A stretch of DNA of 64,000 nt from NCBI RefSeq assembly GCF_900103955.1, contig NZ_FNIL01000001.1, positions 1-64,000 of the forward strand, written 5' to 3'. Below the pieces are notes generated by a model. That model made no database searches. It was not told the origin of the DNA and saw only the letters and a program-made list of their open reading frames with translations. The position numbers were made by a program, and so were the translations under genes. Positions 2,766-59,903 of the stretch are shown here, in pieces; position 1 is the stretch's first letter, and every line of letters begins with the position of its first letter. This DNA comes from Alkalicoccus daliensis (GTDB lineage Bacteria > Bacillota > Bacilli > Bacillales > Salisediminibacteriaceae).

Positions 2766-4159
2766 AGCTGTCTTTAAAAGCAGCGGCACTTGTTTTTGCG
2801 GCGTTTTTACTCCTTATTTCGGTATTGAGCGCGGGCTTTTATTTTTTATCCTACAATTTTTATCAGGAGCAGCTGCTGACAGATATCGATCGAAGAATGG
2901 ATGCGCATAGAGAAGTAGTGGAAGAAGATTTTCACCCGGAAGTGTTCAACCACGTGCGGGTGATGGAGGAACGGGCGGAAGAAGTGAATTATATTTTATT
3001 TGACGGCGAGGGAAACGCAGTCGAAGAAACAGCAGGGATCAGTGACGAAGAGAGGGAAATCTACAACGGATGGCTTGCATCGCAGCTTCCACTGGCAGAC
3101 TCCTCTATGGAATTTGTAGATACTTCGCATCATACGATTGCACACGTATTTGCAGCGCATCCTGTCATTATTGACGGAACAGTAGAAGCATACCTTTTTG
3201 TAGACCAGGCGACGACCAGATTTGAAGCAACACGTGCTTCGCTGCTCTGGCTGACAATTGGCACATCGGGTATCAGCCTGCTGCTTGCCGGAATGCTTGC
3301 CTGGTTTTTCTCCCGTTTTATGACCCGTTCGCTGGTGAAGCTGACTAAAGCAACGGAGCAGGTAGCCAGAGAAAATTTTGATGCAGCGGTTTATACGCCG
3401 CGGCAGGATGAAATTGGGGAACTGAGCAGAAGCGTGCACATTATGACCAATCAGCTGAAATTTTACCGCGATTCCCGCCGGAAGTTTCTTTCAGATGTTT
3501 CTCATGATCTGCGCACCCCGCTCACCTATGTGAAAGCATATGCGGCTTTATTGAAGGACCAGCCGGCCATGCCGCCTGATCAGCTGAGCAAGCAGGCAGG
3601 CGTAATTCACGGAGAGGCCCTGCGCATGGAAAGATTGGTGGAGGATCTGTTTCAGCTGACTAAAATGGATGAAGGGCACTGGGAACTGGAACTGGAAGAA
3701 GAGGATTTGACTGATCTTTTAACAGATGCACGCCCAAATTTCGAAATGATGGCCCAGCAGGAAAACCGGCAGCTGCATATGAAACTTGCAGGCGTCCCTT
3801 CTATTGTTCATGTTGACAGTGAAAGGATGATTCAGGCGCTGACAAACATCGTCCGGAATGCGCTGCATCATACGCCGGAAGGGAAAACTGTGAGCATTTA
3901 TTTGTCGAGGGAACAGGGCGAAGCAGTGATTTCTGTAGAAGATGAGGGACCCGGAATTCCGGAGGATGAACTTCCCTTGATCTGGGAAAGGTTTTACCGA
4001 GCAGACAAGTCACGCACTTCTTCCGCAGGCGGCAGCGGCCTTGGCCTTCCTATTACCAAACAGATTGTAGAAGCGCATCACGGGAAAGTCGCCGCTGTTA
4101 ATAAGGAAAGTGGTGCAGTGTTTATTATCAGGCTGCCGCTGGTCAGGAAAAACAGCTGA
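2762..4159 (+). CDS. Membrane sensor histidine kinase
   Basis: This is a 465-residue kinase with TM1 (about 8-30), an extracytoplasmic domain of about 125 residues, TM2 (about 160-182), HAMP, and HisKA with phosphorylatable H248 in SDVSHDLRTPL. The ATPase domain shows the N box (NIVRNALHHTPEGK), G1 (DEGPGIP), F box (ERFYRAD) and G2 (GSGLGL). The external domain is acidic and carries several His residues (SHHTIAHVFAAH), worth noting beside a His/Met-rich lipoprotein. It partners the overlapping response regulator. Confidence 0.92.
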   Translation: MKLSLKAAALVFAAFLLLISVLSAGFYFLSYNFYQEQLLTDIDRRMDAHREVVEEDFHPEVFNHVRVMEERAEEVNYILFDGEGNAVEETAGISDEEREIYNGWLASQLPLADSSMEFVDTSHHTIAHVFAAHPVIIDGTVEAYLFVDQATTRFEATRASLLWLTIGTSGISLLLAGMLAWFFSRFMTRSLVKLTKATEQVARENFDAAVYTPRQDEIGELSRSVHIMTNQLKFYRDSRRKFLSDVSHDLRTPLTYVKAYAALLKDQPAMPPDQLSKQAGVIHGEALRMERLVEDLFQLTKMDEGHWELELEEEDLTDLLTDARPNFEMMAQQENRQLHMKLAGVPSIVHVDSERMIQALTNIVRNALHHTPEGKTVSIYLSREQGEAVISVEDEGPGIPEDELPLIWERFYRADKSRTSSAGGSGLGLPITKQIVEAHHGKVAAVNKESGAVFIIRLPLVRKNS

Positions 4160-4252
4160 GGTCTGTTAATGACTAATCGTCCGGCGGTGCATTGATTGAT
4201 AAAGTATATACAGTGAGCCAATTTCATAATTACATTTTCAAGGAGAATTGAA

Positions 4253-4290
4253 GAACGTTCATTGACATTAAACATTGAATGTTCGTTTTT
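4253..4290 (+). terminator. Terminator after the two-component operon
   Basis: The stem 4253-4264 / 4273-4284 (GAACGTTCATTG with CATTGAATGTTC, one mismatch) is followed by GTTTTT. It lies about 95 bases past the kinase stop. Confidence 0.75.
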
Positions 4291-4307
4291 CATAAGTGTT
4301 CCGGAGT

Positions 4308-4414
4308 GACAGACGGTGACTCCCGGAGGATCAGCGCAGTCTGAAGATCCAATAGAACGAAGGTTTTTTATCGTCCTATTTAGCTGAAGACAAGCCCTCG
4401 GGCAAGCAGCTGTC
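4308..4414 (+). repeat. Dispersed intergenic element, copy C
   Basis: This is one of four related elements in the window. It shares the blocks AGCGCAGTCTGAAGATCCAA and GAAGACAAGCCCTCGGGCAAG with the copies at 21.3, 43.1 and 59.6 kb, and its ends pair as GACAG/CTGTC. It also carries an internal hairpin (AATAGAACGA with TCGTCCTATT). It sits between convergent genes. Boundaries are approximate. Confidence 0.6.
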
Positions 4415-4605
4415 TATAACGAAGAGACCCTCTATTGTTCGTTTTGAATTATCTGATTTTGTATTATGAAATTGCTTCACAGTAAGTAAAAATTGAAGTT
4501 TCAGGGATAAAAGGAAATATCATATTACTTTCTTATCTCTTGGATATTACTCGAAGGCAGAGGGAAAATTTAAGGCGGGGGTTCCAAAAATTATTTATAA
4601 AAATA

Positions 4606-14761: not shown

Positions 14762-14980
14762 CTGATTCCTCCATCATTCGTTTCTCTACTGATATCCTTT
14801 ATATTGGAAATTTAAACAGGGATTTCATTTTTAGCATGAAGTCTTTTATAGAAGAGTCGTGCTACCTTGAAAATAAAAGTTCCGCTAAAAAGATAATGTG
14901 GCAAATTCAGCTGACTGCAGCAGAAGTATTCTTTGCTGCATGAAAACTGCAATAAAACTATACTTTCTGCACTGCGAATT

Positions 14981-21124: not shown

Positions 21125-21314
21125 TTATAGACACCTCCGTAAATTTTTCAGTTTCCTTTACTACATTTCCTTAAATGCAGGGAAGAAAACCTGCAGGGCG
21201 GCAGAAGAAAACTTATACTTTAAAAATGAAATTGACACATCTGAAAAAGAAGAGTAGTTTAAAATCAGGATGAATGAAGTGGGAGATACACCATGAAAAA
21301 TGAAAATAGCCCAA

Positions 21315-21434
21315 GCTGTTGAAGGAAGTCAAGGCTGGACCAGCGCAGGTTCAGAATTCATTTCAGCGACATGTTCTCCGCTGAGGTTAGTCGGGAACAA
21401 GTCCTCGAGTAAGCCTTGCCGAGAGTGGAACAGC
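21315..21434 (+). repeat. Dispersed intergenic element, copy A
   Basis: This element lies in the leader of the KtrC-like gene. Ends pair as GCTGTT/AACAGC and the 3' flank is ATGA. It shares CAGCGCAGGTTCAGAATTCA and GGTTAGTCGGGAACAAGTCC with the 4.3, 43.1 and 59.6 kb copies. Being about 75 bases before the gene start, it may be part of the transcript. Confidence 0.65.
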
Positions 21435-21508
21435 ATGACATACCTTCTAATAACAAGCTATTTTCAAAGCAGCCTAGAAATAAAGAAATTTATCCAGGAG
21501 GAACAAGT

Positions 21509-43040: not shown

Positions 43041-43129
43041 AGTTCTCAAAAAAGGGTGCAAATTTAAATACTTAATTAATAAATATAGGCTATCTTGAAA
43101 AAGAAATTTTTGTTAAAAAGAAGTAATTA

Positions 43130-43345
43130 TACTGCTGCACTAACGGAGAGGCTTACCCAAAGACTTATTCTGGACTAATTTCTTTAACCGGGCACCGCTT
43201 TTATCGGTCCACAGTCAGCGGGGCAAAGACCGCCATATTGTCTTTAAAACCAGGATCGATTCCGCTCGGGCTTCGTGACCTTCCAAAAGGTCACTTGGAT
43301 TCTCGAACGGCGCTGGAACGTCCTTTCTTTCTTAACAAAGCAGAG
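43130..43345 (-). repeat. Dispersed intergenic element, copy D (inverted, long variant)
   Basis: Ends pair as TACTGCT and AGCAG. On the minus strand it carries CGAGAATCCAAGTGACC and GAAATTAGTCCAGAATAAG, matching the other copies. Roughly 90 extra bases, including a perfect GTGACC/GGTCAC hairpin (43275-43294), separate the two blocks. It lies between convergent genes. Confidence 0.65.
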
Positions 43346-43381
43346 TTAATGTTTGTAATATGAAATTTATCCTGCCCCCTG

Positions 43382-58502: not shown

Positions 58503-59435
58503 CTATGCGGCAGCTTTTTTTGCAGGCGGCACGGCTTCTTTTGCGATAGACAGGTAAATTACCATTACTAAAATAATGGCTGTTCCGAACATCTGATACC
58601 ACCCAAAAGGAATCTGCAGCCAGAGAACGGCTGTAACAATGGCAGCTAAAGGCTCCATGCTGCCCAAAAGGCTCGTTTCCTGCACATCAAGATATTTTAA
58701 ACTTTCCAGGAAAAACCAGAAGCCCAGCATAGTGCCAAAAATTATCACAAAGCCTAAATACAGCAGTGTCGTCATACTCCATCCGCTGATATCAAACGGC
58801 TGCGGAAGGTGAAAAGCACCGATTGCGGTACCGCCGATCAGCATTGCCCATCCTATCACATAGAGAGATCCCCATTGTTTTAAGAGAGGACCGGCATAAA
58901 GTGTGTAAAATGCCAGCGCAACACCTGAGAGAATTCCCCAGAAAATAGATCGGCCTGATACAGCAAGTGTATAAAGGGATCCATCCGTTAACAGTAAAAA
59001 TGTTCCACTAAGGGCCATTATCACGGCTGATATATTTCTGGCATTCAGTTTTGTTAATTTCCTGACTGTTAAATAGGCCAGCACAAACACTGGAGCAAGA
59101 TATTGAAGGAGAGTGGCTACGGCTGCATTTCCATAATTGATGGAAGCCATATATGTATATTGCACGCCAAGCATACCTAAAATTCCAAAAGTAATTACTT
59201 GAATCCGCGCATTTTTATCTTTCCATATAGCGAAGACAGGAAGCTTTCCCCGGAGGAACGAGGCAAGTATTATCATTAACATTCCCGCCAGCAGCAGTCT
59301 CACGGAAACGAGCCACCCTACAGTTATTCCTTCCTCCTGGAATAAATACTGTGAAACTGTCCCCCCGATACCCCAAAATCCAGCGCCGGAGAGGACGAGA
59401 AGAAAGCCGAATATTCTTTTTTTATTGTCCGTCAT
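58503..59435 (-). CDS. EamA/DMT-family transporter
   Basis: This 310-residue membrane protein has ten helices in two EamA repeats (about 8-140 and 155-300), with the features GAGFWGIGGTVSQYLF and GSMEPLAAIVTAVLWLQ. Members export amino acids or other metabolites. The ribosome-binding site is weak (GAGTG). Substrate unknown. Confidence 0.9.
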   Translation of the reverse strand: MTDNKKRIFGFLLVLSGAGFWGIGGTVSQYLFQEEGITVGWLVSVRLLLAGMLMIILASFLRGKLPVFAIWKDKNARIQVITFGILGMLGVQYTYMASINYGNAAVATLLQYLAPVFVLAYLTVRKLTKLNARNISAVIMALSGTFLLLTDGSLYTLAVSGRSIFWGILSGVALAFYTLYAGPLLKQWGSLYVIGWAMLIGGTAIGAFHLPQPFDISGWSMTTLLYLGFVIIFGTMLGFWFFLESLKYLDVQETSLLGSMEPLAAIVTAVLWLQIPFGWYQMFGTAIILVMVIYLSIAKEAVPPAKKAAA

Positions 59436-59607
59436 AATTTATCACTCTTTTTCATTAAGCTTTGTTAAAGTCTAAGATTTTATAAGAGTTGTACGACTCA
59501 GGTTCGTTGTTGTCTGCCACCGGCTGCAGCTGAATTTCTTATGATAACAATAAACAATAACAGAGACACTCATGCAAAATTTTTGCTCCATGAAGTATGC
59601 AAATTAA

Positions 59608-59730
59608 TACTGCTGTGTAACGAAGGAGAGGACGCCCAAAGGACTAGCGCAGTTGGAGAATCCAAGTGGCCTGTGAGAGAAATTAGTCGAGAACAAGCCC
59701 TTGGCAAGCCTCTCCGAAAGTGAAGCAGTA
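59608..59730 (+). repeat. Dispersed intergenic element, copy B (best preserved)
   Basis: Perfect 7-bp terminal inverted repeats (TACTGCT / AGCAGTA), an inner GGAGAGG/CCTCTCC stem, and the blocks GCGCAGTTGGAGAATCCAAG and GAAATTAGTCGAGAACAAGC. Its last base starts an ATGA. It looks like a folded RNA or a non-autonomous mobile element. No coding potential. Confidence 0.7.
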
Positions 59731-59870
59731 TGATTACTTCTTTTTAGCAAACTTTTATTTTCAAGGTAGCATGTATTAATTTTTTATATGGAAATCTTAT
59801 CATGAGGAGGCTTCTTCATAAATAGATATTTGAAAAGGATAAATAATGTTGGCGAGAAAGTATACACTTA

Positions 59871-59903
59871 AAAGATGCTTCAGTTTTATTCTGAAGCATC
59901 TTT
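59871..59903 (-). terminator. Terminator of acidic lipoprotein gene
   Basis: A perfect 13-bp stem (AAAGATGCTTCAG / CTGAAGCATCTTT) just downstream of the minus-strand gene. Confidence 0.9.

Follow-up and report, generated by a model that had tools for sequence, protein, structure and literature searches.

The window analysed here, a 64-kb stretch of the genome of Alkalicoccus daliensis, contains four look-alike stretches that a sequence-only reading had grouped into one family. Inspection of their sequences confirms that all four are present and homologous, and all are recovered by R1, a covariance model built from 27 hand-chosen cores, among which the copy at 4302 is the only one from the window. 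At E≤1, the R1 matches in the window fall at precisely these four places and at no others. The features of the loci are:

4302-4426, + strand: RNA-like core, copy 1 (R1 118.3 bits, E 1e-33; this copy is included in the model's alignment)
21318-21432, + strand: RNA-like core, copy 2 (R1 E 3e-13; outside the model's alignment)
43133-43338, - strand: RNA-like core, copy 3, long-P4 form (R1 E 5.4e-6; outside the model's alignment)
59615-59727, + strand: RNA-like core, copy 4, with P1, P2, P5 and a shortened P4 (R1 E 9e-22; outside the model's alignment)
4215-4478, + strand: complete element of the second end type, read from the sequence, with terminal inverted repeats (TIRs) GAGCCAATTTCATAAT / ATTATGAAATTGCTTC enclosing the RNA-like core
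4210-4214, no strand: ACAGT, recurring at 4479-4483 on the right side of the element and read as a 5-bp target duplication
21287-21474, + strand: diverged own-genus-type element, copy 2 (nhmmer 73.3 bits at 21287-21473; left boundary undefined)
43089-43357, - strand: diverged element with long P4 domain, copy 3 (nhmmer 113.4 bits; left boundary undefined)
59458-59771, + strand: probable complete unit, by analogy with other own-genus units, with left TIR AGCTTTGTTAAAG and right TIR TTTTCAAGGTAGC plus A
59570-59593, + strand: own-genus-type left hairpin, TCATGCAAAATTTTTGCTCCATGA (58 places match the left-end pattern, versus 0 when it is reversed)
59734-59771, + strand: right end TTACTTCTTTTTAGC...TATTTTCAAGGTAGC plus A (by the TATTTTCAAGGYAGC pattern in the genome)
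14861-14897, - strand: orphan right end without a core (no R1 match; nhmmer E 1.5e-5; exact pattern at 14861-14875)

The elements are longer than first described, the copy at 59608 lying within 59458-59771 and the copy at 4308 within 4215-4478. By analogy, the 59608 copy is probably the inner part of the longer unit, whose flanks, TTTCATTA and TGTATTAA, match by eye at 6 of 8 positions, which is weak when taken alone. The 4215-4478 element has an end type common to 22 more core-bearing elements in the named genomes; its ACAGT repeat is 5 bp long, as against the 4-bp rule in that type. Two earlier proposals about boundaries have to be given up. The sequences TACTGCT/AGCAGTA, proposed as element ends, are internal and form the outer helix of the rod described below, a helix with moderate support in that at least 6 pairs form in 71% of 148 distinct cores versus 49% for mis-paired arms. 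Insertion at a fixed tetranucleotide was also proposed; the ATGA/ATAA in question is not a target, because it is located inside the conserved right part, within the longer element. Judging from its sequence, the 59608 copy resembles a long-type core from which most of the P4 domain has been deleted. In long-P4 copies (43089-43357, and host loci among L031-L060) the extra domain is about 100 nt long. The lone right end at 14861-14897 (- strand) adjoins a different palindrome, TGCAGAAAGTAT...ATACTTCTGCTGCA.

The family extends well beyond the window in the host genome (G000; 3.78 Mb in 28 contigs). With 40 candidates scored for each copy, the BLAST matches listed there are 46 for the 59608 copy and 40 for the 43130 copy, self matches and split halves being counted in both cases, and these figures fall short of full counts. 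The 43130-43345 copy, too, has relatives in the genome. The right-end pattern TATTTTCAAGGYAGC occurs at 100 places (59 exact and 41 with one mismatch; 2 for the reversed control), and the left-end pattern at 58, with none for its reversed control. When flanks are aligned, conservation extends to both sides, with ACAGAGACACTCATGCAAAATTTTTGCACCATGAAG on the left and TTACTTCTTTTTAGC...TATTTTCAAGGTAGC on the right. Decay takes several forms: locus L214 keeps both ends and has no core, and in L222 little of the core is left and the right end has decayed. A 5.3-kb pair of left and right ends on contig C15 was considered as one element and is read instead as two separate decayed copies.

Own-genus units are in many cases composite, with extra repeat modules ahead of the part first described. 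A modules (L003, L007, L010, L016) and B modules (L006, L024, L026, L029) lie as far as 400 bp upstream of the left end and form composite units with the own-genus element; some A modules contain an extra domain arranged like that of the long-P4 copies, with a loop resembling GRCGGUCUYUGUC by eye. The A and B modules resemble the core by eye; R1 gives no match in L327 and only E 0.06 in L321. At 1538-1639 of L026 the core has become a perfect palindrome of greater length, of the kind that template switching at a hairpin would produce. A different MITE, ISL3-like, lies upstream of the left end in L222 and L014, where it has inserted in the right part of a neighbouring module; its ends are GGCTCTTAC...GTAA(G/A)AGCC, its 8-bp duplications are TCAGACTT and ATGAACAT/ATGAGCAT, and its empty site is seen in uninterrupted copies such as L016. 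This nested MITE is like the present elements in its 8-bp duplications and GGCTCT-like ends, but it differs in the ends themselves (GGCTCTTAC) and in that no core was seen in it. Repeats also lie at or near the ends of contigs C1, C2, C8, C9, C10, C19, C22, C23, C27 and C28; because several host contigs end within or beside repeats, the repeats are the probable cause of the breaks in the assembly.

In related genomes the same core lies between GGCTCTGTTAAAG-type inverted repeats, and TIR pairs of two kinds, GGCTCTGTTAA / TTAACAGAGCC and GAGTGAATTTCAT / ATGAAATNNATTC, were found. For the first type, the 8-bp flanks are identical in 15 of 19 pairs and agree at seven positions in one, six in one and five in two; random draws of flanks among the 19 elements gave 8 matches in 4.8%, which is about the share of self-pairs. 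The left flanks of these pairs have an AT content of 94%. An R1 match (E≤1e-4) is present at thirteen of the 19 loci, nine of them with exact duplications, and the six loci lacking such a match are one 47-bp and three 89-bp core-less copies together with the host composites L327 and L321. Ends like GAGTGAATTTCAT occur in Alkalihalobacillus trypoxylicola, Salsuginibacillus and Texcoconibacillus, and at the window copy 4215-4478. In this second type a 4-bp duplication is present in 13 of 23 core-bearing elements versus 9.6% for mismatched elements, a length that was chosen after looking: with the right boundary placed one base further out a 3-bp match was present in 25 of 37 orientation-counted rows, and the 4-bp length emerged once the boundary had been shifted. 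For the own-genus type, 51 distinct right ends were examined. A loose rule, for which there was no control, gave a repeated 8-mer before a left-end-like motif in 19 of the 51. Under a strict rule, a left-TIR motif lies within 1 kb of 29 of the 51; the flanks agree at 7 or 8 of the 8 bases for 13 of these 29 and at all 8 for seven, compared with 0.8% (at least 7 of 8) and 0.0% (8 of 8) for flanks taken from other elements.

The elements thus have terminal inverted repeats and target-site duplications, the features that define MITEs, and the copies therefore inserted as DNA. The earlier view of a non-autonomous mobile element is borne out by these TIRs with 8-bp or 4-bp duplications. Core-less copies with duplications also exist, such as the 47-bp L315, and it follows that either insertion does not require the core in cis or the core disappeared later. 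In genome G113, the core is missing from three 89-bp elements (L322, L325 and L337), with break points that differ but lie near the base of P1; these elements are flanked by the duplications ATTACGTT, TTTTTTTT (uninformative) and AATTATTA. An empty site corresponding to the window copy was sought among seven same-genus genomes, with stretches from six of them compared, and none was found. Among the neighbouring genes, an EamA relative is present in all six (50-59% identity), and the other three neighbours tested are present in none. R1 matches occur in two of the six same-genus stretches, the nearest lying about 0.8 kb from the EamA gene.

The distribution of the core is broad. Of 120 genomes sampled across the order, 44 have R1 matches (E≤1e-5), representing 31 of 73 genera, and nine of the 120 have at least 29 matches each. 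A pattern scan of the named genomes gave at least 100 stretches, most of them in A. trypoxylicola and often several in a row; other genera among the stretches listed are Salipaludibacillus, Texcoconibacillus, Salsuginibacillus and Alkalicoccus, along with a Bacillus sp. MAG. In A. trypoxylicola, five loci (L100, L126, L137, L158 and L160) contain tandem duplications of full or partial cores, with two to four units spaced 66-325 bp apart. A search of plasmids matched three records, one from Radiobacillus over the whole query and two from Kurthia over 31% of it, and the same query had no match in phages.

The core itself is a single nested rod composed of P1, P2 and P5, plus a free hairpin, P4. 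P1 and P2 are separated by an internal loop, GAC/AAAGC; P2 is CCC.RAGG/CCUYGGG, and beyond it lies a loop in which AGCGC is opposite AAGC. P5 is GUCU-GA-AG/CU-GA-AGAC, in which the tandem G.A does not vary among the 27 cores of the model alignment (A1) and its neighbours covary. To obtain A1, 174 cores were extracted, 168 kept and reduced to 63 representatives, and 27 of these were picked by hand and aligned, copies with deletions or rearrangements being left out. In A1, 96.9% of cells are paired, a figure that is favoured because the structure was chosen on the same sequences, and 21 of 31 pairs are double-changed, in 146 cells; none of 500 shuffles did as well, slid structures pair 29-51% of cells, and RNAalifold recovers the same helices without a supplied structure. 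A second alignment, A2, consists of 29 distant matches fitted to the model's structure, to which 28 of the 30 distant and TIR-type loci contributed; it has 89.5% of cells paired and 27 of 31 pairs double-changed. Compensatory changes therefore preserve the same rod in many genera, whichever of the two kinds of ends surrounds it, and the suggestion that the copies form a structured RNA family stands, together with the mobile-element reading rather than in place of it. An alternative helix, P3 (GGAUC/GAUCC), was rejected; the nested rod is preferred because P3 competes with P2 and P5, which covary, while the bases of P3 hardly vary. The structural evidence is the covariation and not the folding energies of single copies, which are modestly low relative to shuffles (z of -1.8, -2.2, -3.1 and -0.6), and minimum-energy folds do not show the rod in all single copies.

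Covariation could arise in other ways than through selection on a fold. One scenario is that of a passive palindromic DNA repeat, in which the two arms are converted to each other through template switching at quasi-palindromes. The template-switch-like copy L026 and the near-perfect hairpin of P4 are what such a process would leave behind; however, there is almost no variation in the loop bases or the tandem G.A, though they are not Watson-Crick arms, each of the four tandem G.A positions being kept in 166 to 168 of the 168 cores. The stems of these cores also contain about threefold more G-U than A-C (4674 Watson-Crick cells, 163 G-U, 55 A-C and 316 others, gaps included), a count that is not independent and has no P value because the 168 cores are related. 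We consider conversion an improbable source of the pairing. The excess of G-U points to the core's own strand as the structured one.

The genomic context of the elements offers little sign of a fixed regulatory role. Among 41 elements whose flanking genes were called by a simple ORF script, 12 are arranged >E<, 11 >E>, 9 <E< and 6 <E>, and three have one side unknown. The lack of a preferred orientation speaks against a simple strand-specific role in cis. A riboswitch or cis-regulatory leader was considered and rejected, since all four orientations occur among the 41 elements and there is no fixed position upstream of genes. No sigma-70-like promoter was found within 59400-59900, and the interval 4150-4550 has one alone, on the opposite strand.

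Comparison with known families gives one candidate relative. Rfam at gathering thresholds finds nothing in the window, and at E≤10 neither tsr24 nor HEARO is found in five host loci. In 7 of 20 distant loci, tsr24 (RF02577) matches the core, each time on the strand and at the place of the R1 match, with a best score of 32.9 bits against a gathering cut-off of 50, so that all of these matches are sub-threshold. The likeness to tsr24 extends from the rod (GGCGAGACuCC ... aGcCGAAGACC ... GgCuGAGaC ... GGaAAGCGAAGCC) to its loops and G.A helix; the differences are that the scores fall below the cut-off and that the host loci are unmatched. From the sequences, tsr24, a small RNA of Staphylococcus aureus, looks like a relative of the core. 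The earlier remark that the copies were not recognised as a known family was nearly right, but has to be modified for these sub-threshold matches to distant cores. No usable paper on tsr24 was found in the open-access literature, and the term is absent from PMC5826253. Nor was a description of the repeat family found in that literature, a search outside which most subscription papers fall.

A comparison with HEARO had also been proposed. HEARO is absent from all four Rfam scans, and was rejected with no match in the window, in five host loci (E≤10) or in 20 distant loci (E≤1). HEARO inserts directly before ATGA or GTGA, and the position of the ATGA here, inside the conserved right part, disagrees with that rule. 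More generally, the copies might be non-autonomous relatives of elements with HEARO/omega RNAs (IscB, IsrB) or TnpB-type guide RNAs, as they are high-copy, standalone elements with a structured RNA and had been read as having ATGA at two ends, but the missing HEARO matches, the internal ATGA and the target duplications make this very improbable. The RRXRR domain (PF14239) has 0 matches in the host, although it matched none of the control genomes either.

Several bacterial repeat families are comparable by description only. ERIC/IRU, Correia/nemis and RUP are short repeats that are not autonomous, and in some of them RNA structural motifs are transcribed (PMC2229807); they are similar as RNA-coding, MITE-like repeats and occur in other hosts, but the present core differs from them in being common to elements with different TIRs and duplication lengths. 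In the Bacillus cereus group, bcr1-bcr18 are intergenic repeats, of which bcr1-3 are MITE-like, and 40-51% of copies are in mRNA (84 of 165 and 62 of 155 in two strains; PMC3446304). There, bcr3 accompanied a longer mRNA half-life, which the authors did not consider firmly conclusive (PMC3446304). These repeats are intergenic and partly MITE-like, as here, but differ in that their mobility is linked to a TTTAT motif (PMC6542083). Bhal-1, a stem-loop family of 36 copies and 74 bp in B. halodurans (PMC2267715), is also a structured intergenic repeat, in a related alkaliphile. RNA-bearing MITEs are a kind already known, and what is unusual here is that one RNA core is common to different transposon ends.

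The source of the transposase was sought in the host genome. The Y1 transposase domain, PF01797, has 0 matches there, with matches in 5 of 14 controls and in 6 of 8 searched genomes. The IS240 type is likewise absent from the host, and at four loci of two other genomes it has no GGCTCTGTTAA-type ends. ISL3 has three matches in the host genome; ISL3 ends were readable at 5 of 11 loci examined and in each case differed from those of the elements, but those of the full-length host copy (L344) were unreadable, so that ISL3 stays a candidate; some ISL3 genes of the genus have ends like those of the ISL3-like MITE. Among the TIR pairs no autonomous element was seen, the 16 pairs with at least seven flank positions alike spanning 47-593 bp in loci that are mostly about 3 kb long.

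These results bear on the earlier guess of an IS200/IS605-like element, which is contradicted by the TIR-type ends, the 8-bp and 4-bp duplications and the absence of a PF01797 match in the host. Elements of the IS200/IS605 and REP/RAYT kinds are not known to have target duplications, and transposition of single-stranded DNA is not known to make them; membership in either group was rejected on the duplications and on the lack of a Y1 match in the host. A broader form of the idea is that the core acts as a single-stranded DNA hairpin in transposition or replication, in the style of IS200/IS605 or REP, with no RNA involved. Covariation and strand asymmetry would suit single-stranded DNA equally, and hairpin slippage is seen in core deletions near the base of P1 and in the palindromic rearrangement of L026. 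On the other hand, the host has no Y1 match, the ends are TIRs with duplications of the two lengths given above, and tsr24, which Rfam types as a small RNA, matches the core in distant loci. On balance, a role of the core as DNA seems to us rather unlikely.

The core could also be a trans-acting transposon RNA that aids the transposase, or serves to guide transposition or set its timing, and for that reason is carried by different ends. This would fit with the presence of the same core in two end types with different duplication lengths, and with the conservation of pairing while the ends change. However, no autonomous partner or cognate protein was found, Y1 and IS240-type matches are absent in the host, and core-less copies carry duplications too. 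We regard such a role as unlikely, though deserving of consideration.

We suggest that the copies are probably a MITE-like transposon family of Bacillales with a conserved structured RNA module inside. It is plausible, although short of probable, that the core functions as RNA, either in the transcripts in which it lands or from a promoter of its own. A transposase acting in trans would move the elements via their ends. If the core functions as RNA, it would supply a stable fold recognised by a protein or an RNase, making insertions tolerable or useful, with the consequence that core-bearing lineages might persist. The most economical reading would be that of a fold that matters once transcribed and is recognised by a host factor. 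Held more tentatively, the core is possibly a selfish RNA module, captured repeatedly by different transposon ends (the 8-bp and 4-bp types) across Bacillales, acting in trans or on the transcript that contains it, so that its carrier spreads or is tolerated more readily, with tsr24 as a relative.

Small mobile repeats usually keep their ends while the middle decays. In contrast, an RNA-like middle here stays constant over a bacterial order while the ends change. The family is a specific example, amenable to testing, of selection on an RNA by a transposon or for its benefit, and through it a small RNA of S. aureus becomes linked to a mobile family. In practical terms, annotators could label a common Bacillales repeat for which no name was found.
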